This document shows positions 25,359 through 53,742 of a stretch of DNA of 64,000 bases, piece after piece; position 1 is the first letter of the stretch, and every line of letters starts with the position of its first letter. A program made the translations under genes and the position numbers. This DNA is from Candidatus Omnitrophota bacterium. GTDB lineage: Bacteria; Omnitrophota; JACPQZ01. The stretch covers positions 1-64,000 of the forward strand of contig JACPQZ010000045.1 in NCBI GenBank assembly GCA_016190205.1, written 5' to 3'. The notes under the pieces were generated by a model. It had not been told where the DNA came from and made no database searches. It saw only the letters and a list, made by a program, of their open reading frames with translations.

Positions 25359-25390
25359 CTTACTGCGTACAGCGTTCTGCGTACTGCGCC
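25359..25390. repeat. Word-repeat element, single arm (word TACTGCGTAC)
   Basis: TACTGCGTACAGCGTTCTGC then GTACTGCGCC, repeating TACTGCG/TACAGCG words, in the 59 bp between two converging gene ends. The same words build the much larger element at 27728. Confidence 0.55.
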
Positions 25391-25395
25391 AAGAC

Positions 25396-25878
25396 TCACA
25401 GACTCAAAATACCCCAGACATGCAACACCTTTGCAGGAATGTGCCCCCTGTTCAGGAAGAGCAAAGCCCTCTCGCCTTTAAAGCTCAAGGAATTTCCCTT
25501 TAGAAGCCGATACACGCCGCGACCCAACTTGACCCTGACTTCTCCCTCCAGACACCAGACGAGGCGCTCGGTCCCTCTCCCGGTCTTTTGGATCTCGCCC
25601 TCTTCTCCAGGGGCCAGAGGCACGCACTCATGGTGCAAACGGTATACGGGTCCTTTGGAACAGGATGGAACCCTTTGTCCAGCGAATTCCTGGTACAAAT
25701 CGCCCAGCCCCAGCCTTAAGGCCCGCGCAATCTTGACGTGGGATTCCAAAGTCCCTGTCATGCGCTGGTTTTCAAGCCGGGAAAGCGTGGCCAGGTCCAC
25801 CCGCGCCTTTCGGGAAAGCTCCTGAAGCGTCATCCCCATCTGCTTCCTGACCTTGCGGATCCTATGACCTATTTTCAC
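25396..25878 (-). CDS. XRE-family regulator with cupin domain
   Basis: 160 residues from GTG 25878, chosen because CGGGAG lies upstream and the promoter at 25909-25937 would exclude the earlier GTG at 25908. HTH: IGHRIRKVRKQMGMTLQELS, KARVDLATLSRLENQRM. A small cupin barrel follows (LVWCLEGEVRVKLGRGVYRL, LLKGNSLSFKGERALLFLNR). HTH-cupin proteins are usually repressors sensing a small ligand. A perfect palindrome in its own promoter suggests autoregulation. Convergent with the HD-GYP gene. Confidence 0.85.
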   Translation of the reverse strand: MKIGHRIRKVRKQMGMTLQELSRKARVDLATLSRLENQRMTGTLESHVKIARALRLGLGDLYQEFAGQRVPSCSKGPVYRLHHECVPLAPGEEGEIQKTGRGTERLVWCLEGEVRVKLGRGVYRLLKGNSLSFKGERALLFLNRGHIPAKVLHVWGILSL

Positions 25879-25908
25879 GATAGAGGGCTCCCGGTAAAGA
25901 AACACCAC

Positions 25909-25937
25909 AATATATACCGTCTAGACGATTTAGTCAA
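25909..25937 (-). promoter_or_regulatory. Promoter of the XRE-cupin gene with palindromic spacer
   Basis: Read on the minus strand: TTGACT (25937-25932), 17-bp spacer, TATATT (25914-25909). The spacer contains the perfect palindrome CGTCTAGACG (25918-25927), a likely operator for the XRE protein itself. Confidence 0.6.
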
Positions 25938-26077
25938 AGAGCAAACTAATTTACAGAATCAGCAAATATCTGTTGATTCAAAAGCCATGCTCCTGTTAAG
26001 ATACCCGTCGCCTTCCCTGATGTGCAGCCCTAGTTAATCGACTGTCCGCAGTTTAACTCCCCAAGAGGTACCTTAAG

Positions 26078-27721
26078 ATGAGAATCCCAATCCATTTAAA
26101 GATTTCCCTGGCCATGCTGCTCGCCGGGTCCCTGGCCAGGCCCTCCGGTCTTGCGGCGGGTCCCGCGTGGGAAGATAGAACAGAAGGGCTTTTTCAAGCC
26201 GACACGACCGCCGTGGCTATAGGATCGGACGAAAACCCCGCCGTTTACGCCGCCACCGCAGACGGCTCCCTGTACCAAACGACAGGCGCAGGGCCTTGGA
26301 GGCGTGTAGCCTTGGAAATACCTGCCGGGACCCGCGTTTATAAACTCAAGCTCGACCCCGCGCTGCCCGGAACACTCTATGCTGCAACCGGACATGGCCT
26401 TTATGCCGTTACGGAAAACCGGGCTCGTCAAGTCTTTGCGGGACCGCCCGGCGAGGATGCGGTTACCGCGGTAGCATTAAACCATGCGGGTGAGACAAGG
26501 CGCATCTACGCGGGGACCTCCCGGGGGCTCTACATCCTTGATTCCGATGAGCGTATGTGGAGAAGGAGCGGAGGCGAGTTGGGCGAAAGGCCCATCGGGG
26601 ATATCGCCGTGCACCCCCTCAATCCCAGGACCGTGCTCGTCGCCACGGACCATGAACTGTGGAGGAGCGTGGATCGGGGACTTCATTGGGAGAAGAGGTT
26701 TGCCATGACGCAGGACCACGAGCGGGAGGAAACTCGCGCTGATGCGGCAGACGAAGCGGCGGCGGATGCCGATGCGCTTCAGCCCCGGATTCACACCATC
26801 CTCTTCTGGACCTCGGACCCCGACCGGGTCTACCTGGGCACAGAAAAAGGCGTATTCTTCTCTCAAGACCTGGGCGAAACCTGGGAACATATCCCCGAAC
26901 AAGGGCTCCTCGACCGCAACGTAAAGACTTTAACGACACTGCCGCAGAGCGATGACCGGATGCTGGCCGGTACGGAGGCGGGAGTTTTTGCAGGAGATGC
27001 CAGGCTGGGTTCCTGGAGGGAATTTTACAAGGGGATGACGGCGCGCGACATACGAGGTCTTGCGGTGACCCGGATAGGTCCAACCCGCGTCTGGGCCGCC
27101 ACCGAGAACGGTGTCTTCCTATATGATCCGGAGACCGATCTTGAGCGGCTGAATCTCTATCACGAGATAAAACCGGTCCAGCTCGGCCTGGGTGCGGACG
27201 AGCTTTTGGATGCCTTTTCGTTTGAACCCGAAATCCAAGAGGTGCAGGAGGCTGCCATCCGGTATGCGGAGGTACACCCCGATAAAATCCTCCATTGGCG
27301 CCGGAGGGCTCGCCTGGCGGCCTTCATGCCGGAGCTGGGGCTGGGCTGGGACCGGACGCGCACCGTTGAGATCGACCGCGGCGGGACCAACGACCCGGAC
27401 ACCTTTATTCTGGGTCCGGAGGAGAAGGGGGTTGACGTGAGCTTTAGCTGGGACATAGCCAAGCTCATCTGGAACGACGACGAGACATCCATCGACACGC
27501 GCTCAAAACTTATGGTCCAGCTGCGCGACGACATCCTGGATGAGGTCAACCGCGTCTATTTCGAGCGCCGGAGGATTCAGACGGAGGTCTACTTAAGTCC
27601 TGCCCAGGATGTCCAGGAGGAGGTGGACCGGCGCCTGCGCGTGGAAGAGCTTACCGCACAGTTGGACGGCTTAACAGGGGGCTATTTCACCGGCACTGTA
27701 GAAAGAAATGTGAGAAATTAA
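26078..27721 (+). CDS. Secreted beta-propeller protein (Ycf48/sortilin-like repeats)
   Basis: 547 residues with a signal peptide (LKISLAMLLAGSLARPSGLA). Residues 30-355 hold about six BNR/sortilin-type repeats, each giving a blade with a Y-x-G-T-x-x-G-(L/V)-(Y/F) turn: YAATGHGLYAVTE, YAGTSRGLYILDSDERMWRR, YLGTEKGVFFSQDLGETWEH, LAGTEAGVFAGD, WAATENGVFLYDP. The C-terminal 190 residues are helical (ADELLDAFSFEPEIQEVQEA) with an acidic, beta-like middle. The propeller probably binds a protein or glycan outside the cytoplasm. No catalytic residues recognised. Confidence 0.8.
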   Translation: MRIPIHLKISLAMLLAGSLARPSGLAAGPAWEDRTEGLFQADTTAVAIGSDENPAVYAATADGSLYQTTGAGPWRRVALEIPAGTRVYKLKLDPALPGTLYAATGHGLYAVTENRARQVFAGPPGEDAVTAVALNHAGETRRIYAGTSRGLYILDSDERMWRRSGGELGERPIGDIAVHPLNPRTVLVATDHELWRSVDRGLHWEKRFAMTQDHEREETRADAADEAAADADALQPRIHTILFWTSDPDRVYLGTEKGVFFSQDLGETWEHIPEQGLLDRNVKTLTTLPQSDDRMLAGTEAGVFAGDARLGSWREFYKGMTARDIRGLAVTRIGPTRVWAATENGVFLYDPETDLERLNLYHEIKPVQLGLGADELLDAFSFEPEIQEVQEAAIRYAEVHPDKILHWRRRARLAAFMPELGLGWDRTRTVEIDRGGTNDPDTFILGPEEKGVDVSFSWDIAKLIWNDDETSIDTRSKLMVQLRDDILDEVNRVYFERRRIQTEVYLSPAQDVQEEVDRRLRVEELTAQLDGLTGGYFTGTVERNVRN

Positions 27722-27727
27722 ACGATC

Positions 27728-28004
27728 GTACAGCGTACTGCGTACTGCGTACAGCGTGGAACGTGAAGCGTGGAGCGGATAGCATTTAGCGAATAGCGTT
27801 TAGCGGATAGCGTGTAGCGTATAGAATAACCCCCCCTTTTTTCCTATACGCTCTCCGCTCTACGCTATACGCTAATCGTTGCACGCCTAACGCTGTAAGA
27901 ATCCTGCTCGCCCCGACGTGACGCAGTACGCACGACGCAGTACGCTGTACGAATCTTGCTCGCCCCGACGTGACGCTGTACGCACGACGCAGTACGCAGT
28001 ACGA
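27728..28004. repeat. Large word-repeat palindromic element with 52-bp tandem duplication
   Basis: The whole 316-bp gap before the VKOR gene is filled by repeated words. Outer arms: GTACAGCGTACTGCGTACTG on the left, with complementary GCAGTACGCTGTACG words on the right. Inner arms: AGCGGATAGC, AGCGTGTAGCGTATAG against CTATACGCTCTCCGCTC, TACGCTATACGCT, around a C7-T6 centre. At 27900-27951 and 27952-28003 two 52-bp units are almost identical (AATCCTGCTCGCCCCGACGT ...). No gene is seen. Confidence 0.8.
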
Positions 28005-28037
28005 GCATTGATGATCTCCGTATGTTAAAATACGCGC

Positions 28038-29243
28038 ATGCGGCAGAAATTATTCTGTCTGTGGGTGGTGACCGCGGCCATCGCCTGCGCTGGGCTGGCG
28101 GCATATCTCACCGCCCACTATTATTTTGTCCTCAAGGGCACCCTCTTCACCGGAGGCCCCTGTTCGGACCGCGGAATCTTCGACTGCAGTTCCGTTGCCT
28201 TTAGTGAGGCCGGCTCCCTCTGGGGTCTGCCCATCGCGCTCTATGGGCTGATGCTGTACTTAGGGGTTGCCATCCTGGGACTCCTGGCCCTCGGTTCCGG
28301 GGAAGACTTAAGGCGCGCGGCCCTGTCCCTCGTATGCGCGGTCGCCGCCTGCATGACCGTTTACGATGCGTACCTATTGTGGGTCATGTTCTTTAAGATC
28401 AAGGCGATCTGCATATTTTGCTTAGCGACCCACGCGTTAAATCTCGCCCTGCTGATTTCCCTTTTGGTCTTCCTCCGGCCTGTCCGTCTCGGACGATTTC
28501 TGAGCGACGGAATCGGCCTCTTCCGGTTCCGAATAGGGGCGGGGGGAATGGGCCTTGCCTGGCTTATCACTGGCTTTGCATTGGCCATGCTTACCCTGGG
28601 CGTGGGCGGAGGAATCCTGACCCGAGGGCTCATACTGGGAGACACAGATGAGATGCGGGCTTTCTTCGAACACCAGCTTAAACAGCAGACCCCCGTAGTG
28701 ACCGCGAAGGGGGACAATCCCAGCAAGGGGGCAACTCAACCGCGGATCGAGATCGTCAAATTCAGCGACTTCGAATGCCCTTCCTGCAGGCGCGCCTCGC
28801 GTTACTTAAAACTCGTCCAGGCCCGCTATCCGAACGAGGTATCCATCACCTACAAGAATTTCCCCCTCGATTCATCCTGCAACGCGTTTGTCAGGAACCG
28901 CGTCCATCTGCGGGCCTGCCGTCTGGCGCTCATGGGAGAGTGCGCCTTCAAGCAAAACCGCTTTTGGGAGTATCATGACACGGTATTTAGACTGGGGGCG
29001 GATTCCCCGGTTGACAAAATAGAAGGGGAACTGAAAAAGGCAGGATTAAATGTGATAGAGCTTAAGTCATGCGCTGAAGGCCGCGAGGCCTGGCAAGCCC
29101 TTCAGTCAGACGTCCAGGAGGCCGCGGCGCTTGCGGTTGACACGACGCCCACACTCATTATTAATGGATATCATTTTCAAGGAGACCTCCCTCCCTGGTC
29201 TCTGGAAATACTCATGCAACTTTTGCTGGAAAAAAAGACCTAG
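28038..29243 (+). CDS. VKOR / DsbA-like thioredoxin fusion (oxidative folding)
   Basis: 401 residues. The N-terminal half is a VKOR domain with about five membrane helices, the loop cysteines C42 and C50 (GGPCSDRGIFDCSS) and the active-site C125-I-F-C128. After two more hydrophobic segments, residues 235-400 form a Thioredoxin_4/DsbA-like domain with C247-P-S-C250 (FSDFECPSCRRA) and the cis-Pro region VDTTPTLIINGYHF. In such fusions the DsbA part oxidises exported proteins and is reoxidised by VKOR, which passes electrons to quinone. Extra cysteines (IDSSC, RACRLALMGEC) are typical. The stop almost abuts the converging YIP1 gene. Confidence 0.93.
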   Translation: MRQKLFCLWVVTAAIACAGLAAYLTAHYYFVLKGTLFTGGPCSDRGIFDCSSVAFSEAGSLWGLPIALYGLMLYLGVAILGLLALGSGEDLRRAALSLVCAVAACMTVYDAYLLWVMFFKIKAICIFCLATHALNLALLISLLVFLRPVRLGRFLSDGIGLFRFRIGAGGMGLAWLITGFALAMLTLGVGGGILTRGLILGDTDEMRAFFEHQLKQQTPVVTAKGDNPSKGATQPRIEIVKFSDFECPSCRRASRYLKLVQARYPNEVSITYKNFPLDSSCNAFVRNRVHLRACRLALMGECAFKQNRFWEYHDTVFRLGADSPVDKIEGELKKAGLNVIELKSCAEGREAWQALQSDVQEAAALAVDTTPTLIINGYHFQGDLPPWSLEILMQLLLEKKT

Positions 29244-29244
29244 G

Positions 29245-29796
29245 CTAAGAAGCGCCTCTCATGGTTTGAGCCGCCCCGAAGAAAAGCCCGCCCATCAGGG
29301 CCGCAAGTCCCACGATGATGGCTACCATAATAAGCCACCCGATGACGACCACCGCGACAGCGCGTCCGGTGCTCGTGTAGTCCAAGGTTTGCCGGACGGC
29401 AACCACCATGCTGACGATCATCCAGATAGTGGCCGCGAGTCCCACAAGGACCCGAAGTGGCGGGATGACCCCCAGCACCCGTATGACTCCCGGTGAGCTG
29501 GCAAATCCTAAGGTGCGGAGCATCTCACTGAAGTTTGCTTTTGTCTGCGGGGTGGCAAGGAAGCGAGTGCCTACAAAATAAGTAAGGAAGGCCCAGACAA
29601 ACCACCCGATGAGGGCGCCGACTGCGCTCGTTAAGATTCCCACTACGCCCAGGGTGCTAAACATCCCAATACCAGCCGCGGCGCTTGATATAAGCACGGC
29701 GAGCATCGCCTGTCCCATCGCGGATGTATCCTGTTCTACTTCCTCATAAAGCTGAACATCGAGTCTCGCAGCACGCAGCATGCGCTGGATGAGCAC
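29245..29796 (-). CDS. YIP1-family membrane protein
   Basis: 183 residues, GTG start with AGGGAGG upstream. Five hydrophobic segments in the YIP1 arrangement: AMLAVLISSAAAGIGMFSTL, ALIGWFVWAFLTYFVGTRFL, a GFASSPGVIRVLGVIPPLRV loop, LAATIWMIVSMVVAVRQTLD and VVVIGWLIMVAIIVGLAALM. Bacterial YIP1 proteins have no established function. Same strand as the DCC1 gene 83 bp upstream, possibly one unit. Confidence 0.85.
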   Translation of the reverse strand: MLIQRMLRAARLDVQLYEEVEQDTSAMGQAMLAVLISSAAAGIGMFSTLGVVGILTSAVGALIGWFVWAFLTYFVGTRFLATPQTKANFSEMLRTLGFASSPGVIRVLGVIPPLRVLVGLAATIWMIVSMVVAVRQTLDYTSTGRAVAVVVIGWLIMVAIIVGLAALMGGLFFGAAQTMRGAS

Positions 29797-29879
29797 TGTC
29801 CACCTCCCTTTGGTTTGACCGGTTCCTGCGGATACCCATTATAACCGAACGGCTGGAGAAAAAGGAAGCATCAGGCATA

Positions 29880-30266
29880 TCATTTTTTCGGTTGGTGAAC
29901 GCCGCATGTTCCCTCCGGGCACTCCTTCGCGTTGAGCCTGTAACGGTTCCGGGCCACCAGGCGGTAGGCCCCGTTTGAAATCTGCCTGACTGCCGGCAGA
30001 TAGTATGCCCAGACCAAAAACCTTAGCAGGGCGTGGTCATGGATTGCCCGCACGACCGCTTCCATCCCGCCCGATATACGGCCATCAGGCTCAACCAGCT
30101 TGAGCTCCCGCATGCATTCTTCAAAGGTAAGCTTCGGAAACCGGTCCAAAGCGCCCTTTTCCTGAAAGGAGACCAGTTCGATCCCAGGTCCCGCGAGCCG
30201 GGAGATTTTCCCGGCCTGGGCGCGGCAAAAGGGGCAGTGTCCGTCATAAAGCAAAAATCCTTTCAA
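29880..30266 (-). CDS. DCC1-like thiol-disulfide oxidoreductase (DUF393)
   Basis: 128 residues from TTG with AAGGAGG upstream. The family motif is D-x-x-C-x-x-C near the N-terminus, seen as LLYDGHCPFCRAQA. ELVSFQEKGALDRFP, then GGMEAVVRAIH and a C-terminal ARNRYRL match DUF393. A thioredoxin-like redox role is assumed for the family. It is close to the VKOR-DsbA gene, though on the opposite strand. Confidence 0.87.
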   Translation of the reverse strand: MKGFLLYDGHCPFCRAQAGKISRLAGPGIELVSFQEKGALDRFPKLTFEECMRELKLVEPDGRISGGMEAVVRAIHDHALLRFLVWAYYLPAVRQISNGAYRLVARNRYRLNAKECPEGTCGVHQPKK

Positions 30267-30334
30267 ATCACCCTCCTTGTGAGAACGCCTTTATTCTATC
30301 ATAGGGAGATGCTAGAATAATTCGCGGAGGATCC

Positions 30335-31348
30335 GTGAAACTCAAACAAAAGTATCGTTACGAATTGGATCCCTTGAACCGGCTGGTCATACGATCACCG
30401 CGGGCCCCGGGCTCGCCTTTAAGACCGGTGCACATCGTAGACGGGACTTATGAGATCGGCCCGGGCAATACGCTCGCCTGGCAAGCCAGCACCCGTGAGG
30501 GCACGCCGCTTCATAGGGTGATTTTCACAGGGACCTGGTCTCTCACCCGGCGCCATGAGCTCGCGCTCACCTTGGAACGCTCTAAAACACAAGTCTTCGG
30601 CGACACCCTGGTCTTTAAAGGGGAGGTGGGGGAACCGGAGGCACAGGGCCTCGCGTTTACCGCGCGAGGGGGAATAGCCCCAGGCGGGCAAAAAAAGCAG
30701 GTACTCCGGCTTGAGGGAACCTGGCAGGCCGATCCGCGCAACCGGCTGGTTTTTCTCGCGCAAAGGGGAGGGGAGCGGGGCCCGCATCCCATCACCCTGG
30801 AAGGGACCTGGGAAATAGGAGCCGGACACCAAATTCTTTACCGTTATGAGACTTCTAAAGCCGGGCGTCGGGAAGAGAGGACGATCCAGTTTGCGGGAAG
30901 CTGGTCCCTCACCCAAGAGAACCGCCTCGACTATCTGCTCGAAAAATCCGGCCGCTCCGCATTCCGCTTCCGCGCAAAGCTTGAACATGCCCCGCTGATG
31001 GCCCATGTCCACACCATCCCCTTTGCGGTCTCGATCGAGCTCAAAAACGGGCGGAGGGTCAGAAGACGAGTGTCGCTTACCGGCCAGTGGAAGGTGAGGC
31101 CGGCATTTGACGTCACTTTTGAGCTGGACTATGGGGGCGGCCGTATAGAGACCCTGCGCTTTGCGAGCTCCATACGCCTGAACACGAAGGATCAAATCGT
31201 TTTGGAACTAAAGGCCCAACGCGGCGAGCCCGTTGGGATAGAGCTTGCTTTTCTGCGCCGGTTTTGGCGGGATGCGGAGTTCTTCGTTAAACTGCGGCGG
31301 GAAGCAGACAACACCGCAGTCGAAGCAGGGGCAAGGGTACCTTTTTAA
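30335..31348 (+). CDS. Beta-strand repeat protein of unknown function
   Basis: 337 residues, GTG with CGGAGG eight bases upstream. No signal peptide or membrane helix. At least five imperfect units of about 55 residues, each centred on a G-(T/S)-W-x-(L/I/V) strand and an N-x-(L/I)-x(Y/F) strand: FTGTWSLTRRHELALTLERS, LEGTWQADPRNRLVFLAQRG, LEGTWEIGAGHQILYRYETS, FAGSWSLTQENRLDYLLEKS, LTGQWKVRPAFDVTFELDY. Alternating hydrophobics suggest a large beta sheet, barrel or solenoid. I do not recognise the family. Confidence 0.7.
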   Translation: MKLKQKYRYELDPLNRLVIRSPRAPGSPLRPVHIVDGTYEIGPGNTLAWQASTREGTPLHRVIFTGTWSLTRRHELALTLERSKTQVFGDTLVFKGEVGEPEAQGLAFTARGGIAPGGQKKQVLRLEGTWQADPRNRLVFLAQRGGERGPHPITLEGTWEIGAGHQILYRYETSKAGRREERTIQFAGSWSLTQENRLDYLLEKSGRSAFRFRAKLEHAPLMAHVHTIPFAVSIELKNGRRVRRRVSLTGQWKVRPAFDVTFELDYGGGRIETLRFASSIRLNTKDQIVLELKAQRGEPVGIELAFLRRFWRDAEFFVKLRREADNTAVEAGARVPF

Positions 31349-31353
31349 ATAAG

Positions 31354-31527
31354 TAACCAGATACCAGTAACCAGTTACCAGATAGATACCAGAAACCAGA
31401 TGCCAGGGCCATGCGTTTAGCAAATTGTTTTTCAGGTGTTAACCTTTCTTCAGCTTCTTGCTTTGACCTTTTTCTGGTTTCTGGTATCTGGTATCTTCTG
31501 GTTTCTGGTCACTGGTTTCTGGTATCT
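31354..31527. repeat. Word-repeat palindromic element (word CTGGTATCTGG)
   Basis: The left arm 31354-31406 repeats TAACCAG, ATACCAG, GAAACCAG. The right arm 31484-31527 repeats CTGGTTT and CTGGTATC. The two arms are complementary and enclose about 77 bp. It lies between the beta-repeat gene and a small zinc-finger gene. Confidence 0.8.
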
Positions 31528-31542
31528 TTAGTAATGAGGTGA

Positions 31543-31689: not shown

Positions 31690-31697
31690 GAAGACCA

Positions 31698-33874: not shown

Positions 33875-34015
33875 AAAATCCAAGTACCCACTCGCAAATA
33901 AGCACCAAATTCCAAGCACCAAAACCCAAACAAATTCCAAACCCTGGTGTTTAGGTCATTGGGATTTAGGATTGGGAGCTTGTTTGGGATTTGTGATTTG
34001 TTATTTGGGATTTTT
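33875..34015. repeat. Word-repeat palindromic element (word CCAAATTCCAA)
   Basis: Left half: AAATCCAAGTACCC, AAGCACCAAATTCCAAGCAC, CCCAAACAAATTCCAAACCC. Right half: GGTGTTTAGGTCATTGGGAT, TTGGGAGCTTGTTTGGGATT, TTGTTATTTGGGATTTTT. The halves are complementary. It lies between two converging genes; the minus-strand gene's stop codon (34001-34003) falls within the right half. Confidence 0.75.
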
Positions 34016-34258
34016 CTGAAGGCCCCTGCCGCCCACCCACTGGCCCAGAACTGCGGTAGCAATGAGAATCGGGATAGCCCAATAGGGGCAATGGGAAAGT
34101 ATCCTGAAGGCGATAACCAGGGGAACGGGCAGGTGGATGTAAAGCCACCACTGAAACGAGAATTTTTTGGCGCGCGCACGCAGCCGTCCGAACGGAAGAT
34201 TGAGGATGAAGGTAAATACCATAAGTCCTGCTACGAGCCATAGGGAATGCGTGTGCAT
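34001..34258 (-). CDS. Small multi-pass membrane protein, conserved hypothetical
   Basis: 85 residues with three hydrophobic segments: LWLVAGLMVFTFILNLPFG, WWLYIHLPVPLVIAFRI and WAIPILIATAVLGQWVGG. The conserved-looking loop GRLRARAKKFSFQWWLYIHL and the internal prolines argue for a real protein; the frames on the other strand are not convincing. Its 3' end runs into a word-repeat element, so the last residues (GLQKNPK) may not be native. Function unknown. Divergent from the TPR gene at 34377. Confidence 0.65.
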   Translation of the reverse strand: MHTHSLWLVAGLMVFTFILNLPFGRLRARAKKFSFQWWLYIHLPVPLVIAFRILSHCPYWAIPILIATAVLGQWVGGRGLQKNPK

Positions 34259-38060: not shown

Positions 38061-38092
38061 AAAAGCCCTCTGGGAACTATCAGAGGGCTTTT
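38061..38092 (+). terminator. Strong Rho-independent terminator
   Basis: AAAAGCCCTCTG pairs with CAGAGGGCTTTT around an 8-nt loop. It lies 20 bp after the TIGR04073-like stop. The A-run on the 5' side makes it work in both directions, serving the converging regulator gene too. Confidence 0.9.
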
Positions 38093-38107
38093 GTCGTCAA
38101 ATCACGA

Positions 38108-38170
38108 AGTCCACAGTCCACGGTCGACAGTAGACTCTCATCTCTTGCCGTGGACTGTGGTCTGTGGACT
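38108..38170. repeat. Word-repeat palindromic element (word AGTCCACAGTCC)
   Basis: AGTCCACAGTCCACGG (38108-38123) pairs with CCGTGGACTGTGG (38148-38160), extended by TCTGTGGACT. It lies just after the terminator, between converging genes. Confidence 0.8.
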
Positions 38171-42586: not shown

Positions 42587-42605
42587 CCTCGGGGTAACAC
42601 CTCTT

Positions 42606-42710
42606 GTCGCTGGCCGCTGGTCGCTAGTCGCTGGCAAGCAAGAACCCCATCAGTTTAAAGACCGTTTCATTATGCTAGCGACCAGCGACTAGCGACTAGT
42701 TACTAGCGAC
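42606..42710. repeat. Word-repeat palindromic element (word GCTGGTCGCTAGTC)
   Basis: The left arm 42606-42634 contains GCTGGTCGCTAGTCGCTGG; the right arm 42675-42710 contains CTAGCGACCAGCGACTAGCG. The arms are complementary over about 20 bp with a 40-bp loop. It follows the glycine-zipper gene and precedes a terminator. Confidence 0.8.
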
Positions 42711-42736
42711 GGGCGGTGATAATAATCCGGCCAACC

Positions 42737-42772
42737 ACCCACCCAGGCCAGTAAGCCTGGGTGGGTTTTTTT
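42737..42772 (+). terminator. Rho-independent terminator
   Basis: ACCCACCCAGGC pairs with GCCTGGGTGGGT around CAGTAA, followed by seven T. It ends the unit from the glycine-zipper gene, after the word-repeat element. Confidence 0.9.
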
Positions 42773-45528: not shown

Positions 45529-45651
45529 AGACTACAGACTGAAGACTTAACGAAAACCACCTCTTTTAATCTGAAGTTTGTTTTTTTGCGATGCACGAAG
45601 CACGAAGCACGATTCAGTCTGTAGTCTGTGGTCTGTAGTCTTCAGTCTTAA
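45529..45651. repeat. Word-repeat palindromic element (word AGTCTGTAGTCTGTGG)
   Basis: Left arm GACTACAGACTGAAGACTTAA spans 45529-45549 and the complementary right arm CAGTCTGTAGTC...TTCAGTCTTAA spans 45615-45651. The loop contains CACGAAGCACGAAGCACGA. The right arm ends one base before the Memo-family ATG (45653), so the start region lies in the structure. Confidence 0.8.
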
Positions 45652-45652
45652 C

Positions 45653-46474
45653 ATGGTCACGCACGCCCAACATACCAGAACGCCCGCAGTAGCGGGCCAA
45701 TTCTATCCCAGCGATCCCAAAGAGCTTTCTGAAACGGTAGAAAAGCTCCTTCCTAAAAAGGCGAGCGCCGTTCCGCGCAAGGCGGTTATCGTCCCGCATG
45801 CAGGGTATATCTATTCCGGCAAGATTGCGGGTAACGTGTATGCGCGCACGGCGGTTCCAAGCCTTTCCATACTCGTAGGACCCAACCATACGGGCAGAGG
45901 GGCGAGTTTGAGTTTATACCCGGGCGGGTCTTGGATGACCCCGTTAGGAGCCATGCGGGTCAATCAAGATTTCGTGCAAGCCATCCGAAGAGAGTTCGAT
46001 GCCTTCAGTCTGGATACCCTGGCACACACCTATGAACACAGCCTGGAGGTCCAGCTTCCCTTCCTAAAACATATCAGCGCGCAGTCAACCATCGTGCCCA
46101 TTATCGTGGGTACGGACCATGTTCCATCCCTCCTAAAAGCGGGTTCAGCGCTGGGGAGGGTTATCCGGGACTGGAAGCAGCCCTCATTACTCATTTGTTC
46201 CACGGATATGACACATTATGAGCCTTTAGTGACAGCCCAGCGAAAAGACAAAATGGCCATTCAGGCGCTCACTTCCCTGGATCCGAAGGAGCTGGCCCTT
46301 GTCGTGGCGGAGAACGCTATATCCATGTGCGGATGGGCCCCTGCCGTCATGATCTTGGCCGCCTGCCGTACCCTGGGTGCCACGAAGGCCGAGTTCATAG
46401 CCTACGGGACAAGCGCGGATACAACTGGAGATCGTTCCAGCGTCGTGGGTTATGCGGGGATGGCATTCGGCTAG
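45653..46474 (+). CDS. Memo-family protein (AmmeMemoRadiSam system protein B)
   Basis: 273 residues from ATG 45653; an earlier in-frame ATG lies in the repeat. RTPAVAGQFYPSDPKELSET, VPHAGYIYSGKIAGNVYART, VGPNHTGRG, YEHSLEVQLPFLKHI and SDTMTHYE-like CSTDMTHYE are the Memo metal-binding landmarks (His, Cys/Asp, His). In many bacteria it is encoded with an AMMECR1 protein and a radical-SAM enzyme; neither is adjacent here. Exact function is unproven. There is no ribosome-binding site beyond the repeat arm. Confidence 0.9.
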   Translation: MVTHAQHTRTPAVAGQFYPSDPKELSETVEKLLPKKASAVPRKAVIVPHAGYIYSGKIAGNVYARTAVPSLSILVGPNHTGRGASLSLYPGGSWMTPLGAMRVNQDFVQAIRREFDAFSLDTLAHTYEHSLEVQLPFLKHISAQSTIVPIIVGTDHVPSLLKAGSALGRVIRDWKQPSLLICSTDMTHYEPLVTAQRKDKMAIQALTSLDPKELALVVAENAISMCGWAPAVMILAACRTLGATKAEFIAYGTSADTTGDRSSVVGYAGMAFG

Positions 46475-46642: not shown

Positions 46643-46677
46643 TATCCATATTTCATAATGGGCAAGGCAACACAGAG

Positions 46678-47411: not shown

Positions 47412-47416
47412 AGCCC

Positions 47417-48772
47417 ATGTTCAATAAAATTCTAATCGCAAACCGCGGCGAGGTCGCCGTACGCATTATCCGAGCATGCCGCGAGCTGGGCATCCGGACG
47501 GTGGCCGTCTTTTCCAAGGCCGACCGCGAGAGCCTGCACGTGCGCCTCGCTGACCAGGCGATCTGCGTCGGGGACTCCGCCAGCCAGGAGAGCTACCTCA
47601 ATATACCGGCGATCATCAGCGCCGCCGAAATCACGGATGTGGAGGCCATCCATCCCGGCTACGGCTTTTTGGCAGAAAACTCTCACTTTGCGGAAGTCTG
47701 CCAGTCCTGTCAGATAACGTTCATCGGCCCCCGGCCGGAAGCCATCCGGCTCATGGGAGACAAGGCCGAGGCGCTCAAGCTCATGAAAAAAAATGGCATC
47801 CCCACGGTACCCGGAAGCGATGGCATCATTAAGGACTCTGATGAGGCCCTCAAGGTAGCCCGGCGGGTCAAATACCCGGTCATCGTAAAAGCGGCTGGCG
47901 GAGGAGGGGGCAAGGGCATGCGCACCGCCCATAACGACGGGCACCTCGTCAGCGCTTTCATGACGGCGCAGGCAGAGGCCGAAAAGGCCTTCTCCAACCC
48001 GGCCGTCTACATCGAAAAATACATCGAAGAACCCCGTCACGTCGAGGTTCAGATCCTCGCCGATAATTATGGTGCGACCGTTCACCTGGGGGAGCGGGAC
48101 TGCACCATCCAGCGCAATCACCAGAAGCTCATTGAAGAGGCGCCTTCCCCGATACTCGGGGGAAAGCTGAGAAGAAGGATAGGAGAGGTGGCCCTCAAAT
48201 GCGCTCGTCTCGCGCACTACAACAACGCGGGCACCATCGAATTTCTGGTGGACAAGGACCGCAACTTTTACTTCATGGAAATGAATACCCGGATCCAGGT
48301 GGAGCACCCGGTCACGGAGCTCGTGACCGGGATTGACATCGTCAAGGAACAGATCAGGATCGCTTCGGGGGAGAGGCTGCGCTTCCGTCAGGAAAATATC
48401 CGCTTCCACGGCTGGGCCATCGAGTGCCGGATCAATGCCGAAGATCCGGATAAAGGTTTTACTCCGTCGCCCGGTTACATCAAAACGTACCGGCCGCCCG
48501 GGGGCCCGCGCGTCCGTCTGGATACCCACATTTATCCCAACTACCTGGTGCCCCCATTCTATGACTCCATGATCGCGAAACTTATTGTGCACGGAAACGA
48601 CCGCCAGGAGGCCATCAACATCATGAAGAGGGCCTTGGATGAGTTTGAGATCGGTCCCGTCAAGACCACCATCCCGCTCCACCAAAAAATATTCCGCAAT
48701 CCGGCGTTTTTGCGCGGGCAGGTCTCCACGCATTTTATCGAGACCTTTTTTTCAAATGGTAATAAAATATGA
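47417..48772 (+). CDS. accC: Biotin carboxylase subunit of acetyl-CoA carboxylase
   Basis: 451 residues, full length. [20 protein letters not shown] (N-lobe), [33 protein letters not shown] (ATP glycine-rich loop), [20 protein letters not shown], and [19 protein letters not shown] (metal and bicarbonate site). It carboxylates biotin on AccB with ATP and HCO3-. The first committed step of fatty-acid synthesis depends on it. The stop overlaps the next ATG (ATGA). Confidence 0.97.
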
Positions 48773-48783
48773 GGGGCCGACGC

Positions 48784-49380
48784 ATGCGATGGGTGGATGA
48801 AATCTTGGTAGGGTTTTACGCTTTAACCCTGCTCGTGATGGGTCTTGTCATCCTGGGGATTACCATGGGATTTATCCCTGCCTCCCTGGCAGAATTTTGG
48901 CTATCCAGGATCCAGGGCGACCCCTTGACGCGCTGGCAGTTTCTGGCTGGAGGTGCGCTCATGACCCTCTTGGCGCTTGCGACCGTCGCCCTGGTAAGAC
49001 AACGGTCGCACATCGAGCGTCATCTCGTCTTCCGGAACGAAGAGGGCCAGATTGAGGTGAGCATCCACGCCCTGGAAGAGGTGGTCCGGAATGCAGGACG
49101 GGACTTCCTGGATATCAAGTCCATCCAACCCGTGCTTTTGATCCATAAAAACAGTGCGGTCGTCAAGGCCGACCTGGAACTCTATGCAGGGGCCCACATC
49201 AACTTTACGGCAGAACGGCTTCAGTCTCGCATCAAGGATCAGTTTGAGCAGTTGCTGGGAAGAGACGTGAAGGTAGCCATTGACGTGGTCGTAAGACACG
49301 TGGACCGGAAGGGGACGTCCCCTCGGCCCCGTGACGCAGACCGAAGCATGCATTTCGGCTCGACACCCGGCACCGGTTGA
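48784..49380 (+). CDS. amaP: AmaP-like (Asp23-associated) membrane protein
   Basis: 198 residues from ATG 48784 (GAGGGG upstream; ATG 48769 overlapping the accC stop is possible). Two membrane segments, about 8-30 (LVGFYALTLLVMGLVILGIT) and 53-75 (LAGGALMTLLALATVALVRQ). The cytosolic part (IEVSIHALEEVVRNAGRDFL, VKADLELYAGAHINFTAERL) matches DUF322/Asp23-like alkaline-shock domains and AmaP. In Gram-positives AmaP anchors Asp23 to the membrane. The tail (RKGTSPRPRDADRSMHF) is low complexity. Asp23 itself is not in the window. Confidence 0.8.
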   Translation: MRWVDEILVGFYALTLLVMGLVILGITMGFIPASLAEFWLSRIQGDPLTRWQFLAGGALMTLLALATVALVRQRSHIERHLVFRNEEGQIEVSIHALEEVVRNAGRDFLDIKSIQPVLLIHKNSAVVKADLELYAGAHINFTAERLQSRIKDQFEQLLGRDVKVAIDVVVRHVDRKGTSPRPRDADRSMHFGSTPGTG

Positions 49381-49388
49381 GGAAGGAA

Positions 49389-50444
49389 ATGGATAACATG
49401 AATCCAAGCAATACAGATGTGAAACGTATCGGCGTCTTGACCGGGGGGGGTGACTGCCCCGGTCTAAATCCAGTGATCCGGGCCGTGGTACGGCGTGCGA
49501 TCCGGGCCGGAATCGAGGTCATGGGCATCCGGGACGGCTGGAAGGGGCTGGTGTCTGATACGATCGTCCCCTTGGATATTAATTCGGTCTCCGGCATCTT
49601 GTCGCGAGGGGGGACGATCTTGGGCACTTCACGGACAAACATTTATAAGAACCCGGCCGATTCCGTTAAGGCCAAAGAAACAATGGCCAAACATAAACTG
49701 GATGCCCTGATCGCCATTGGAGGGGAGGACACCTTGGGCGTGGCGCAGAGGCTGTACGAGGAGGGGATCCGGGTGGTGGGGGTTCCCAAAACGATCGACA
49801 ACGATCTCTCCTGCACCGACTATACCTTTGGCTTCGACTCGGCGATCAATATCGCCATGGAGGCGATCGACCGCCTGCACACCACAGCCGAAAGTCACAA
49901 CCGCGTCATCGTCGTAGAACTCATGGGACGGCATACGGGCTGGATTGCCATGCATGCCGGTATCGCCGGCGGGGCGGACGCCATCCTGATACCCGATGTG
50001 GAAAACGATATCGACCTGGTGGTCGCAGAGCTTAAAAAACGGCACGCGCGGGGCAAACGTTTCAGCATCGTTGCGATTGCAGAAGGCGTCAAGCTTAAAA
50101 ACACGGTGGTGACCCAGGATGCACGCGTAGATGACTTCGGCCACGTCCGGCTGGGCGGGGTGGGACAAACGCTGGCCGCGGAGATTGAAAGGCGCACCGG
50201 ATACGAAACGCGTACGGTCGTGTTGGGACACCTTCAGCGCGGAGGTTCGCCGACCGCCTTTGACCGGATCCTGGGCACCCGCTTTGGCATTCGGGCCGTA
50301 GAACTCGTTTTGGAAGGCGGATTCGGAAAAATGGTCTGCCTTCGCGGCAATACGATTGAAACCGTCGAAATCAAGAAGGCGATCGCCCAGCCCAAGACCG
50401 TAGACGGCGAATGGGTTAAGATTGCCAGCGTGTTTTATGGCTGA
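49389..50444 (+). CDS. pfkA: Phosphofructokinase, pyrophosphate-dependent type by signature
   Basis: 351 residues from ATG 49389 (AGGAAGG before it). VLTGGGDCPGLNPVIRAVVR, GGEDTLGVAQRLYEEG, VPKTIDNDLSCTDYTFGFDS and MGRHTGWIAMHAGIAGGADA are the PfkA core. Asp114 in GGED stands where ATP-enzymes have Gly, and Lys134 in PKTIDND where they have Gly; Asp plus Lys is the pattern of PPi-using enzymes. It would phosphorylate fructose 6-phosphate reversibly with PPi. This fits the membrane pyrophosphatase at 15983. Next gene overlaps by 8 bp. Confidence 0.93.
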   Translation: MDNMNPSNTDVKRIGVLTGGGDCPGLNPVIRAVVRRAIRAGIEVMGIRDGWKGLVSDTIVPLDINSVSGILSRGGTILGTSRTNIYKNPADSVKAKETMAKHKLDALIAIGGEDTLGVAQRLYEEGIRVVGVPKTIDNDLSCTDYTFGFDSAINIAMEAIDRLHTTAESHNRVIVVELMGRHTGWIAMHAGIAGGADAILIPDVENDIDLVVAELKKRHARGKRFSIVAIAEGVKLKNTVVTQDARVDDFGHVRLGGVGQTLAAEIERRTGYETRTVVLGHLQRGGSPTAFDRILGTRFGIRAVELVLEGGFGKMVCLRGNTIETVEIKKAIAQPKTVDGEWVKIASVFYG

Positions 50445-51036
50445 AACAAAGTCCCGCCCGGCATACAACCTGAAAGGCCGTCTTAAGGAAGTTGTCTCGG
50501 AGAGCATTCGCGTCAAGCAGGCCACCCTGACCACGCAAAGCGGGCAGATCGCCCAGATTGCGGAACTCGCCATCCAGTCCCTTCGAAAGGGCGGAAAAAT
50601 CCTGATCTGCGGAAATGGGGGAAGCGCCTCACAGGCGCAGCACCTGGCCGCTGAAATTATCTGCCGCTATAAGAAAAATAGAAAGTCCCTGCCCGCCCTT
50701 GCCCTGAACACCGATACGGCGGTCATGACCGCCGTGGCGAACGATTTTTCATACGAAGACGTCTTTGCAAAACAGATTGAGGGTCTGGCCGCTCCGGACG
50801 ATCTCGTCTGGGTGTTGTCCACAAGCGGCAATTCTCCCAATGTGGTCCGCGCTGTTCAAGCGGCGAGGAAGGTGGGCTGCCAGATCGTTGGATTTACGGG
50901 CGAATCGGGGGGCCGCCTCAAAGACCTCGTAGAATACCTGGTCAGGGTCCCGTCGCGCGAGACCGATCGCATCCAGGAAACCCACATCACGATCGGGCAT
51001 GCCGTTTGCGAGGCGATCGAGGAAACCCTGGGATAA
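50437..51036 (+). CDS. gmhA: Sedoheptulose 7-phosphate isomerase
   Basis: 199 residues from ATG 50437, inside the end of pfkA. SIS domain: ILICGNGGSASQAQHLAAEI, LNTDTAVMTAVANDFSYEDV, LSTSGNSPNVVRAVQAARKV, and DRIQETHITIGHAVCEAIE with the Gln/His metal and catalytic residues of GmhA. It makes heptose 7-phosphate, the first step to ADP-heptose for LPS inner core. HldC-type adenylyltransferase follows, so the heptose pathway is clustered here. Confidence 0.93.
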   Translation: MAETKSRPAYNLKGRLKEVVSESIRVKQATLTTQSGQIAQIAELAIQSLRKGGKILICGNGGSASQAQHLAAEIICRYKKNRKSLPALALNTDTAVMTAVANDFSYEDVFAKQIEGLAAPDDLVWVLSTSGNSPNVVRAVQAARKVGCQIVGFTGESGGRLKDLVEYLVRVPSRETDRIQETHITIGHAVCEAIEETLG

Positions 51037-51037
51037 C

Positions 51038-51517
51038 GTGGGAACCAAACGCAAGGGTCTCAAGGCGGTCAGGGCCCTCGCCCGCAGGCTCCGTCAAAAG
51101 GGAAGGCGGATCGTCTTCACCAACGGGTGTTTTGATCTCATCCACCCGGGTCACATCCAAATCCTGACGCGCGCCCACGCCCTGGGTGACTACCTGATCG
51201 TAGGACTCAATTCGGACAAATCCGTAAGGCGTCTGAAAGGGCCATCCCGGCCCTTCATCAGCCAGCAGGGCCGCTCCCAGATGCTCGAGGCCCTGGAGTG
51301 CGTGGATTGTGTCGTGATATTTGACGCGCCCACGCCGGAGGCCTTGATCCGCGCGATCCACCCCGACGTGCTCGTCAAGGGCGCGGATTGGACGAAGGGT
51401 GAGATCGCCGGCGGAGATTTCGTGGCATCCTATGGCGGGAAGATCGCCCGGGTGCCTCTCGTAAAGGGACAATCCAGCACGCGGCTCATCAGGCTTCTTA
51501 AAAATAATGTTACTTAA
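51038..51517 (+). CDS. hldC: Heptose 1-phosphate adenylyltransferase domain protein (HldC/RfaE2-like)
   Basis: 159 residues from GTG 51038, one base after the gmhA stop. Cytidylyltransferase fold: RIVFTNGCFDLIHPGHIQIL (HxGH), LIVGLNSDKSVRRLKGPSRP, VLVKGADWTKGEIAGGDFV and KGQSSTRLIRLL. This is the C-terminal half of HldE as a separate protein. It adds AMP to heptose 1-phosphate. No HldA-type kinase domain is fused; a PfkB-family kinase lies two genes on and is a candidate, as HldA is also of that family. Confidence 0.9.
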   Translation: MGTKRKGLKAVRALARRLRQKGRRIVFTNGCFDLIHPGHIQILTRAHALGDYLIVGLNSDKSVRRLKGPSRPFISQQGRSQMLEALECVDCVVIFDAPTPEALIRAIHPDVLVKGADWTKGEIAGGDFVASYGGKIARVPLVKGQSSTRLIRLLKNNVT

Positions 51518-52163
51518 GAACGAGGTCATCCTTTTTCCCCCGGAAAACCCCCTTTATCCCATTCTAAGTCTTCCTTCAGACGATGTCGAAAGCTACGTCA
51601 ACGCCTTTGATGCCCTGGTCCGCGCCGGCGTAGCCATCGTACAGCTGCGGGCCAAGGGACTGCGGCCGGGAGACCTGGAACAGCTGGCAGGACGCCTGGT
51701 AAAAAGGGCCCGGGCGGCACGCATCCGCCTCATCTTAAACGATGAGGTTGAACTCGCGGCACGCATCCGGGCGGACGGGGTCCATGTGGGTCAGAAGGAC
51801 GCCTCGGTAAAAACAGTGAGAGGATTAGGAATCCCTCTCGTAGGAGTTTCCACTCACTCGGTCGAGGAAGCGAGAAATGCCCAGTCGCAGGGAGCCGACT
51901 ACATCGGGGTGGGCTGTCTTTTCCCGAGTCCAACGGAGCCCCACCGCAAGCCCCTGGGGCTCGCAACCCTGCGCAGGATACGCGCGCAGGTTCACATCCC
52001 GATCGTGGCCGTAGGCGGGATCTCGCATGACAACATCTGGGAATGCGTTCAGGCGGGGGCGGATGCCGTTTCCTCAATCAGCGCCGTTTTTGGCGGCGGG
52101 GATTTTGAGTCCAATTGCCGGAACCTTATGGCCAGGATCCACGCAGAGGTTCTAAACACGTGA
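51507..52163 (+). CDS. thiE: Thiamine-phosphate synthase
   Basis: 218 residues, ATG inside the end of hldC. TIM barrel: VAIVQLRAKGLRPGDLEQLA, ARAARIRLILNDEVELAARI, ADGVHVGQKD, VGVSTHSVEEARNAQSQGAD and GVGCLFPSPTEPHRKPLGL with VAVGGISHDNI (phosphate-binding loop). It couples the pyrimidine and thiazole of thiamine. The T in TPTKT-like loops reads SPTEPHRKP here, a mild change. No other thi gene is nearby. Confidence 0.9.
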   Translation: MLLKNEVILFPPENPLYPILSLPSDDVESYVNAFDALVRAGVAIVQLRAKGLRPGDLEQLAGRLVKRARAARIRLILNDEVELAARIRADGVHVGQKDASVKTVRGLGIPLVGVSTHSVEEARNAQSQGADYIGVGCLFPSPTEPHRKPLGLATLRRIRAQVHIPIVAVGGISHDNIWECVQAGADAVSSISAVFGGGDFESNCRNLMARIHAEVLNT

Positions 52164-53062
52164 GTCCTGTGCTCGTGCTGGGCACGGTGGCCATTGATTC
52201 TGTGGAGACACCTTTCGGCCGGAAAAAGGCGGTGCTGGGGGGATCGGCGAGCTATGCCGCGTACAGCGCCAGTTTCTTCGCACCCGTCCGGCTGGTCGCC
52301 TGCGTAGGCTCTGATTTTCCAGAGCGCTACACCCGGGTCCTGCGTGAACGGCCCATCGACACGGCAGGTCTTGAAAGGGTGCCCCATGAACGCACGTTCC
52401 GCTGGCGCGGCCGTTATGGGGCGGATCTCGGAGAGGCCACTACGCTTGCCACGCACCTCAACGTGCTTGAGCGCTTTAACCCCAACATTCCTCTGGATTA
52501 TCTGGACACCCCCTGCGTTTTTCTTGCAAATATTGATCCGGTTATACAAGAGCGCGTCTTGAACCATCTGAAGCCGCGGTGGGTGGTTCTGGACTCCATG
52601 AATTACTGGATACAGCATAAGAGGAAGGATCTCTTGCGCGTGGCGAAACGAGCTGATCTGGTTGTCTTGAACGACGCAGAGGCCCGGGGGCTTGCCCAGG
52701 AGGCGAGTCTGGTTCATGCGGCACGACGCCTAAAGAAATTCGGCTTGAAGCGTCTGATCATTAAAAAGGGCGAGCACGGCGCGCTCCTCTTTGAAGACGA
52801 CAAGTTTTTTCTAGCTCCGGCTTATCCGCAGCCCGCGACGGTAGATCCTACGGGGTGCGGTGACGCCTTTGCCGGCGGGCTCACGGGATTCCTGGCATCT
52901 CAGAAAAAGATTACCCGGCGGCTTTTGAGACGTTCCGTTATAGCCGGAAGTGTGATGGCCTCTTTCACGATCGAGGATTTCGGACTCAAGCGGCTGCGCA
53001 GACTCACGCATGCGGAAATCCGAAACCGCCTGACTGAATTTCACGACCTCATCCGTTGCTAA
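52160..53062 (+). CDS. PfkB-family sugar kinase
   Basis: 300 residues from GTG 52160 (GTGA overlap with the thiE stop). LGTVAIDSVETPFGRKKAVL, GGSASYAAYSASFFAPVRLV (glycine pair), VVLNDAEARGLAQE, IIKKGEHGALLFED and the C-terminal signature VDPTGCGDAFAGGLTGFLAS (catalytic Asp). The substrate is unknown: similar proteins are annotated simply as sugar kinases. Proximity to gmhA and hldC allows a heptose-kinase role, but a different sugar or nucleoside is equally possible. Confidence 0.88.
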   Translation: MSPVLVLGTVAIDSVETPFGRKKAVLGGSASYAAYSASFFAPVRLVACVGSDFPERYTRVLRERPIDTAGLERVPHERTFRWRGRYGADLGEATTLATHLNVLERFNPNIPLDYLDTPCVFLANIDPVIQERVLNHLKPRWVVLDSMNYWIQHKRKDLLRVAKRADLVVLNDAEARGLAQEASLVHAARRLKKFGLKRLIIKKGEHGALLFEDDKFFLAPAYPQPATVDPTGCGDAFAGGLTGFLASQKKITRRLLRRSVIAGSVMASFTIEDFGLKRLRRLTHAEIRNRLTEFHDLIRC

Positions 53063-53074
53063 TACTCGCGGCGT

Positions 53075-53155
53075 ATTTGTTCGTCGTTCGTTGATCGGTT
53101 ATCGGTCATCGCAAACTTTTTCTTGCAATAACCGATTACCGAACACCGATAATCG
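53075..53155. repeat. Word-repeat palindromic element (word ATCGGTTATCGG), copy 1
   Basis: GATCGGTTATCGGTCATCG on the left and CGATTACCGAACACCGATAA on the right are complementary around AAACTTTTTCTTGCAATAACC. The first 45 bp (ATTTGTTCGTCGTTCGTTGA ...) recur at 53666 with a few changes, so this is a family member present twice, on either side of the tRNA-Gly region. Confidence 0.8.
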
Positions 53156-53287
53156 AAGTTGCACGTAAAGCGTACACGTGAGGCGCGCAAAATAACAACA
53201 TATAGCGTCTATTGCGCAGCGCAGTCTAGGTATAGTGTCAGAATCATGTTACGAAATGTGCCCGTAGAAATAATTTGTTTTTGAAGT

Positions 53288-53293
53288 TATAAT
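53288..53293 (+). promoter_or_regulatory. TATAAT box upstream of tRNA-Gly
   Basis: TATAAT lies 54 bp before the tRNA; no good -35 hexamer (TAGAAA at the expected distance). Between them is more word-like repeat DNA (ACGCAACACGCACGACGCGG, TACGCACTACGAAGTAC). Likely tRNA promoter, weak evidence. Confidence 0.4.
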
Positions 53294-53347
53294 ACGCAAC
53301 ACGCACGACGCGGTACGCACTACGAAGTACTGTGCCTAAGTCATGAT

Positions 53348-53419
53348 GCGGGTGTAATTCAGCGGCAGAATGCAAGCTTCCCAAGCTTGACGTTGTGGGT
53401 TCGACTCCCATCACCCGCT
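53348..53419 (+). tRNA. tRNA-Gly, anticodon CCC
   Basis: Cloverleaf: acceptor GCGGGTG / CACCCGC, D-arm with ATTCAGCGGCAGAAT, anticodon stem CAAGC / GCTTG with loop TTCCCAA (anticodon CCC, for GGG), T-arm GTGGG TTCGACT CCCAT, discriminator T. CCA is not encoded. The 3' 25 nt (53397-53421, ending three bases past the acceptor) are copied exactly at 53625-53649, and 19 nt are copied inverted at 53437-53455. Confidence 0.95.
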
Positions 53420-53649
53420 GTATTTATCCGCGTAACGTGATGGGAGTCGAACCCAGGGAAAAGGGTTCGGGGAAAACGGGAGTTTTCCCCGAGGCACGGC
53501 GCATCTCAGGTGAGGGGGGAATCTAAGGGGGGTGCGCAGCACGAGTGAATAATGGATGATCGCAAGCACCCCCCTTAGGGAGCATCGGCGTTTCAAATTT
53601 GATGGATCAAAGAGCCGATGCGACGGGTTCGACTCCCATCACCCGCTGT
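53397..53649. mobile_element. tRNA-Gly-flanked mini-element with serial hairpins
   Basis: Two exact 25-bp direct repeats of the tRNA-Gly 3' end (53397-53421 and 53625-53649) enclose about 200 bp, like an attL/attR pair. Inside are an inverted copy of the same tRNA end (53437-53455), a perfect 10-bp stem with tetraloop (CGGGGAAAAC / GTTTTCCCCG, 53468-53491), a 13-bp perfect inverted repeat (CTAAGGGGGGTGC 53523-53535 / GCACCCCCCTTAG 53566-53578) and an 8-bp one (GCATCGGC 53582-53589 / GCCGATGC 53614-53621). No protein gene is present. It may be a decayed integrative element or a structured non-coding unit. Confidence 0.6.
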
Positions 53650-53665
53650 TGACATGTCGGGGTAG

Positions 53666-53742
53666 ATTTGTTCGTCGCTCGGGGATCGGTTATCGGGGAT
53701 CGCAAACCCCGGATGATTGCGATGACCGATCACCGATAACCG
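53666..53742. repeat. Word-repeat palindromic element (word ATCGGTTATCGG), copy 2
   Basis: GGGGATCGGTTATCGGGGAT on the left pairs with ATGACCGATCACCGATAACC on the right; the loop holds CGCAAACCCCGGATGATTGC. It shares its first 45 bp with copy 1 at 53075. Lies just before the NlpD-like gene. Confidence 0.8.

Follow-up and report, generated by a model that had tools for sequence, protein, structure and literature searches.

Why would the gene gaps of a single bacterial contig carry short tandem words that share one design while the words themselves change from gap to gap? The question is raised by a contig of a Candidatus Omnitrophota bacterium (assembly GCA_016190205.1, contig JACPQZ010000045.1), whose first 64,000 nt, here called the window, contain a series of intergenic word-repeat elements. 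A preliminary description of this DNA listed nine such places, most of them a repeated word followed by a spacer and the complementary words. All nine are present in the sequence as described, while a tenth array and an array nested inside one of the nine had been overlooked (Table 1). The words had been given lengths of 7 to 12; however, every array steps by exactly 7, and the longer words consist of one unit plus part of a second. The intergenic arrays therefore obey one common rule, a period of exactly 7.

This rule is evident from self-comparison at fixed offsets, in which 28-bp frames with at least 19 self-matches at a given lag were merged into arrays. At lag 7 the window contains 15 merged arrays, whereas lags 2, 4, 5, 6, 8, 10, and 11 yield none. 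A 403-kb sample of the genome, composed of 20 stretches and the window, yields 172 arrays at lag 7 as opposed to 0–2 at lags 2, 4, 5, 8, 10, and 11; the sampled contigs were chosen by TACTGCG matches and are thus biased toward this word, while the window itself was not chosen in this way. Most of the arrays (150 of 172) lie outside genes called with a home-made codon-based gene finder. In gene gaps 40 bp or longer, the sample (34,564 gap bases) holds 118 lag-7 arrays and the window (7,692 gap bases) holds 14, compared with 0 in dinucleotide shuffles of either, and the sample gaps contain no array at lags 4, 5, 6, 8, 9, 10, or 11. The excess over shuffled intergenic DNA, proposed at the outset as a test of these elements, is hence present. 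Heptad clusters occupy 25% of the gap bases in the sample. The same scan of 50 kb of E. coli K-12 returned 0 arrays at lag 7.

Each unit is built from a constant core of 4–5 bases and 2–3 variable bases, as in ACCAGnn, TCGTGnn, TCGGTnn, and GCGTnnn. In ACCAG units lying between two exact cores and themselves unselected, the core positions are conserved at 0.88–0.99 and the two following positions at 0.46–0.59. Variable phases are contiguous beyond chance (-0.004 versus -0.171 expected, standard error 0.024). The vocabulary is large, with 168 arrays of the sample yielding 68 distinct canonical words, and 42 of the 172 arrays have an inverted partner of the same word within 250 bp, compared with 8 when words are dealt at random.

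The elements were initially thought to carry each its own word and, unlike repetitive extragenic palindromes (REPs), not to keep their sequence. Neither statement holds. The exact TACTGCG doublet occurs at 64 places in the genome, and at least four of the nine reported sites have copies elsewhere that extend past single words (27728, 31354, 42606, and 53075/53666; up to 92% identity over 170 bp). Within the sample, clusters group into families of 18, 9, 4, 3, and fewer members, whose copies are up to 95.7% identical and retain non-heptad inner linkers between unrelated flanks. Genome-wide, matches number 75 for the ACCAG element and 69 for the TACTGCG element; because one hairpin copy may be matched on each strand, there are fewer elements than matches. 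The two ATCGGTT sites of the window group with copies in L012, L010, and elsewhere (labels with L or G are our own). The largest copies are nested, in the order TCGTG - ACCAG - CGAA - loop - CGAA' - ACCAG' - TCGTG', and the ACCAG arms surround differing centers, among them a further heptad module and a hairpin of GGCGGATCCGCC. This hairpin module lies inside several ACCAG elements (L164, L166, L167, and L170).

Nesting and arm inversion are both visible in alignments. Across 18 ACCAG hairpins the two arms stand in the same register, an AGAT interruption included, and match at 95% of core bases and 37% of variable bases. The arms fall into two types, and 17 of the 18 hairpins contain one of each, in either order. 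At variable positions the arms of one hairpin agree at a rate of 0.358, lower than the 0.434 (standard deviation 0.019) obtained for type-matched arms taken from different hairpins; pairing is therefore not kept by compensating change. Inversion through recombination between the arms, in which segments are swapped and differences kept, would explain this pattern. A comparison of arm-duplex energies across loci was uninformative, as longer foreign arms win.

Gap lengths indicate that the elements are mostly added DNA. Tandem gaps with arrays have a median length of 164 bp, which falls to 34 bp once the cluster is removed, while tandem gaps of at least 20 bp without arrays have a median of 81 bp. 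Of 73 clusters, 66 lie between tandem genes, 5 between convergent and 2 between divergent ones; tandem, convergent, and divergent gaps contribute 71, 18, and 11% of gap bases, respectively. The elements are best read as added DNA which is tolerated in gene gaps and scarce in divergent promoter gaps, and not as a dedicated gene-end signal.

The heptad habit returns as species-private bursts in unrelated phyla. The nearest genomes compared with this one belong to the same phylum and are no closer; among 193 genomes of the phylum, 22 contain four consecutive ACCAGnn units, and the load is heavy in a few (71 in this genome, 56 in G056, 19 in G016, and 13 in G191). Three consecutive GCGTACW units occur in more than 100 stretches, including records of Chloroflexi, Gemmatimonadaceae, Bacteroidetes, Planctomycetota, Glycomyces, and Omnitrophota. 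Once these arrays are masked, a further 165 lag-7 arrays remain in the same contigs, compared with 27 arrays at lag 8 and 7 arrays at lag 5; the 44–46 arrays at lags 6 and 9 are expected from coding DNA. One Chloroflexaceae genome carries 219 GCGTACW (TACTGCG) doublets, whereas 25 relatives carry none and 102 kb of relatives contain 2 arrays at lag 7 versus 4 at lag 8; a reversed-pattern control gave zero in most genomes of this comparison. A Chloroflexaceae metagenome-assembled genome (MAG) presents a second extreme case, with about a dozen different words spread over 18 lag-7 arrays in 20 kb (L254; G193:C298). Word sharing is limited: this genome and the Chloroflexaceae have 5 words in common versus 3.1 by letter shuffling, and sharing with mixed phyla is in modest excess (8 versus 3.0 for this genome and 7 versus 1.8 for Chloroflexaceae). 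A universal vocabulary was rejected, as sharing is near chance for most other genome pairs too. Spread by phages was likewise rejected, the TACTGCG triple being found in only 4 of 2.9 million viral contigs.

A comparison of one locus between relatives, as the preliminary description had suggested, reveals a different word and the same 7-base period. In Glycomyces sp. NRRL B-16210, a (GCGTACT)n array lies in a 104-bp gene gap. The orthologous gap measures 5–40 bp and lacks an array in seven congeners, while in one further congener it measures 179 bp and contains (GTACGTT) x6 (congeners as judged from a list of relatives and from 75–89% DNA identity of the flanking genes). The surrounding 100 kb contain only 1 and 2 strict lag-7 arrays in the two species, so coincidence in one gap is unlikely. 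An equivalent comparison in Chloroflexaceae was abandoned, since the query was a glycosyltransferase and the relatives were too distant.

Taken together, we assign a probability of about one half to the reading that the elements are 7-nt slippage arrays together with dispersed, non-autonomous imperfect palindromes built from them. Here, synthesis with strand slippage or template realignment would duplicate a short stretch with an offset of 7 nt. Because re-annealing would need only the 4–5-nt core, the 2–3 other positions could drift and the word could change during array turnover. Some arrays may then gain an inverted copy, by a fold-back template switch or by insertion, and become hairpin-forming modules, which could insert in or beside one another to give nested A-B-C-loop-C'-B'-A' elements. 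Complete modules would be copied to new intergenic sites by some further route, and recombination between arms would invert the middle segment. What drives the arrays (slippage), why the period is 7, and how the modules disperse are inferences. Slippage or template switching, already suggested in the preliminary description, thus still leads as an idea of origin; the shared architecture with changing words is upheld, but sequence is conserved in the dispersed families. A permissive background may be provided by the lack of detectable MutS and SbcD: MutS (MutS_V domain) and SbcD gave no match in this genome (G000, 93% complete), with positive controls.

Several points weigh against this reading. 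Simple slippage does not itself forbid units of 5, 6, or 8, yet these are absent, and the split into core and variable bases is also expected of protein-binding arrays. Target-site duplications were not seen by eye in copies with flanks, where the array ends are ragged, and no mobilizing enzyme was identified. MutS and SbcD are also absent in most tested members of the phylum, including many without ACCAG arrays; their loss therefore does not explain the burst and was rejected as its cause. Insertion is not seen directly in this genome, because the genomes compared include no close relative. The word swap comes from a single Glycomyces site, and homology of the two inserts there through a shared TGTACAATGC in their flanks, which was considered, is not significant.

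A more far-reaching proposal can be put forward tentatively, with the odds against it: a 7-base ruler, stemming from replication itself or from a shared enzyme, would write the intergenic arrays with the word free to change, such that a gap could receive another homogeneous word without any change of period, and the arrays would seed new mobile palindromes in species-private bursts.

Slightly less probable, and on balance doubtful, are transposon-like elements in which the heptads are repeated binding sites of a transposase or partner protein. The core would be the recognition sequence and the 2–3 variable bases spacers, different words would serve different proteins, and the arrays would be subterminal as in miniature inverted-repeat transposable elements (MITEs) or CACTA-type elements. 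This explanation fits the core rule equally well and is in line with the dispersed copies with conserved inner linkers, with the shared register of the arms and with the presence of four Y1-type transposase genes in the genome. However, no binding protein was identified, nor, within the 403-kb sample, an autonomous copy. The more than 60 words of the sampled genome would demand as many different specificities or nearly so, a large share of arrays stand singly without a partner, and no target duplications were seen. Inverted same-word array pairs 0.5–5 kb apart show no excess in the 403-kb sample (4 versus 9 direct pairs). The Y1-type transposase gene of the window (1087-1674, minus strand, Pfam Y1_Tnp) is flanked not by heptads but by inverted GTGCCAGGTT (1078) and AACCTGGCAC (1748) copies, in a region spanning 1036-1757, and Y1 transposase was rejected as the mobilizer on account of these different repeats. 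A 9-bp tandem repeat, GTATAAGCG x3.3, adjoins this gene. Of the three other Y1 genes, that of L218 alone has a heptad array nearby (within about 100 bp). L218 holds ACGTCCG/ACGTCCC heptad arrays at 2291-2351 and 3935-4055, one beside the Y1 gene and the other about 1.7 kb beyond. Among the genomes tested, Y1 transposase is encoded in 8 of 9 with arrays and in 6 of 11 others.

Two further explanations appear improbable, to a similar degree. The first is a dedicated enzyme with a 7-nt step, for example a reverse transcriptase or specialized polymerase, which writes or rewrites arrays in place. It would accord with the strict period of 7 in phyla whose vocabularies are mostly independent, with bursts private to single species and with the different homogeneous words at one Glycomyces gap; nothing, however, ties the arrays to an enzyme, and no candidate gene was found, none having been searched for.

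The second explanation regards the elements as gene-end RNA structures, i.e., hairpins after the stop codon which end transcription or protect mRNA 3' ends and of which only the fold is selected. Clusters of 60–120 bp and above 120 bp fold better than shuffles (median z -3.2 and -5.3, respectively), and a T-run follows the right arm in many ACCAG copies, in one orientation. The location within 150 bp of a stop codon noted earlier is true in 94% of cases, but random placement in the same gaps gives 92%; there is, however, a milder bias toward lying at most 20 bp from the stop (80% versus 59%). Against gene-end function, the arms do not covary, most clusters lie between same-strand genes and can abut the next start codon, and placement tracks the stop-to-start gap and not a fixed offset. 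Short single arrays show no fold excess, nor do 35 of 96 clusters. Furthermore, separate terminators accompany two elements: an intrinsic terminator hairpin at 42737-42766 follows the GTCGCTG element, and, by eye, a terminator-like hairpin at about 38063-38093 directly precedes the AGTCCAC element. The gene-end role suggested in the preliminary description is accordingly not retained. Each word is about equally frequent on both strands relative to transcription, as expected because both arms are counted.

Plain microsatellite noise, i.e., isolated heptanucleotide simple sequence repeats without dispersal or architecture, is the least probable explanation, being disfavored by the non-heptad linkers conserved among dispersed copies and by the excess of inverted same-word partners, even though some arrays are simple single runs (AAGCGGG x4) and, in prokaryotes, no intergenic tandem unit is more common than the heptamer (PMC6344855).

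Table 1. Heptad elements of the window (window positions).
Position	Strand	Element	Arms or parts	Identified by	Copies and context
25354..25393	.	Single TACTGCG (GCGTnnn) array	No partner arm	Lag-7 scan, Tandem Repeats Finder (TRF)	Heptad-only matches elsewhere
27717..28007	.	Compound TACTGCG / TAGCGnn element	Outer TACTGCG 27726-27757 / 27921-27952, additional copy reaching 28007; inner TAGCGnn 27790-27829 / 27839-27878, enclosing C7T6 loop	Lag-7 scan, inverted-repeat search	L012 15943-16157, 87.7% identity over 220 bp, opposite orientation; RNA fold z -9.6
31346..31532	.	ACCAGnn element	31346-31400 / 31458-31532		L025 4274-4443, 91.8% identity over 170 bp; RNA fold z -9.4; fills whole gap from stop at 31348 to next start at about 31543
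33905..34008	.	CCAAATT arms (33875 in preliminary description)	33905-33945 / 33968-34008; lag-7 array 33978-34018	Inverted repeat I3 (73% over 41 nt), lag-7 scan	No copy found in sampled part of genome
38108..38170	.	AGTCCAC arms	38108-38128 / 38150-38170	Inverted repeat I18	Weak matches elsewhere
42597..42721	.	GTCGCTG arms	42603-42634 / 42675-42721	Inverted repeats I2 and I7	L014, 78% over 83 bp; fold z -7.0
45529..45655	.	AGTCTGT arms	45529-45547 / 45613-45648; nested GCACGAA array 45589-45612	Inverted repeat I23, TRF, lag-7 scan	
53072..53157	.	ATCGGTT arms	53081-53102 / 53128-53149	Inverted repeat I20	53666 element, 77% over 77 bp; L012 9584-9626, 93% over 43 bp
53290..53330	.	AATACGC array		Lag-7 scan	Just upstream of tRNA-Gly; matches L012/L014 heptads
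53666..53742	.	Second ATCGGTT element		Lag-7 scan, comparison with copies elsewhere	

Within the compound element, TRF additionally reports a direct repeat of 52 bp at 27890-28004 (2.2 copies, 93%), with a CTGCTCGCCCCGACGTGACG linker between TACTGCG heptads. The tRNA-Gly(CCC) gene at 53348-53419 has the 19 bp of its 3' end repeated inverted at 53437-53455, and 18 bp of these recur directly at 53625-53642, resembling att-like duplications of tRNA 3' ends. In an Rfam search of the window, tRNA was the sole match.

As dispersed, non-autonomous imperfect palindromes in gene gaps, the elements resemble the mosaic REPs, bacterial interspersed mosaic elements (BIMEs), and hairpin-forming REP doublets (REPINs) mobilized by REP-associated tyrosine transposases (RAYTs), and a Y1-type transposase is likewise present in the genome. 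REPs differ, however, in having a fixed sequence of 20–40 nt and no tandem heptads, and the Y1 gene of the window lacks the conserved palindrome that flanks a RAYT gene. Among tandem repeats, the short tandemly repeated repetitive (STRR) sequences of cyanobacteria are tandem heptamers described in Calothrix. The preliminary description knew no name for the present class, but intergenic heptamer repeats have been published as widespread and unexplained (PMC6344855; PMC4679880; PMC4692102). These papers do not describe nested palindromes of many words, nor did an incomplete coverage of the literature give any published description of them.

Of these known heptamers, the elements share the defining traits, an exactly 7-bp tandem unit and an intergenic location. 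The TAACTGA repeats of Beggiatoaceae, Cyanobacteria, and Bacteroidetes are similarly patchy over phyla and show 7-base indels between strains, but have one favored word, single-base variants that are rarely repeated and almost no inverted pairs, and mostly lie just before start codons in BOGUAY (MacGregor, 2015; PMC4679880). The GGGAATC and GGGGA(C/T)T repeats of Xanthomonas and Nostoc are also degenerate heptads (GGGANTN), with some convergent inverted pairs, rarity between divergent genes and sequence variation between relatives; there, one G-rich, quadruplex-capable word prevails per lineage, whereas most words here are not G-rich (Rehm, 2015; PMC4692102). Such a single dominant word, a trait of the described cases outside the definition of the class, does not occur in this genome. 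One proposal, in the form quoted in PMC4692102, ties heptamers to the stretch of DNA that the polymerase holds. In Geobacter metallireducens, heptanucleotide elements likewise form multicopy intergenic families of four or five tandem heptads with some inverted pairs, but comprise few fixed consensus families and octanucleotide families too (PMC2700814).

In the SPADE survey, heptamers ranked first in abundance among intergenic tandem repeats across a broad set of prokaryotic species, without a clue to their function, and the authors left the prime-number periodicity unexplained (Nucleic Acids Res 2019; PMC6344855). Unlike that survey, which counts arrays, a single genome here reveals many degenerate words, dispersed nested palindromes, and a core/variable rule. 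Together with the Glycomyces and Chloroflexaceae cases, this genome offers handles on the question why 7, namely a strict period with a free vocabulary, the core/variable rule, dispersed palindromes derived from the arrays, and one orthologous gap whose word differs between two congeners; the array-bearing Glycomyces NRRL B-16210 is not a MAG, which makes strain-level sampling possible in that genus. The abundant and unexplained intergenic heptamers already known are thus encountered here in an extreme, many-worded, mobile form.

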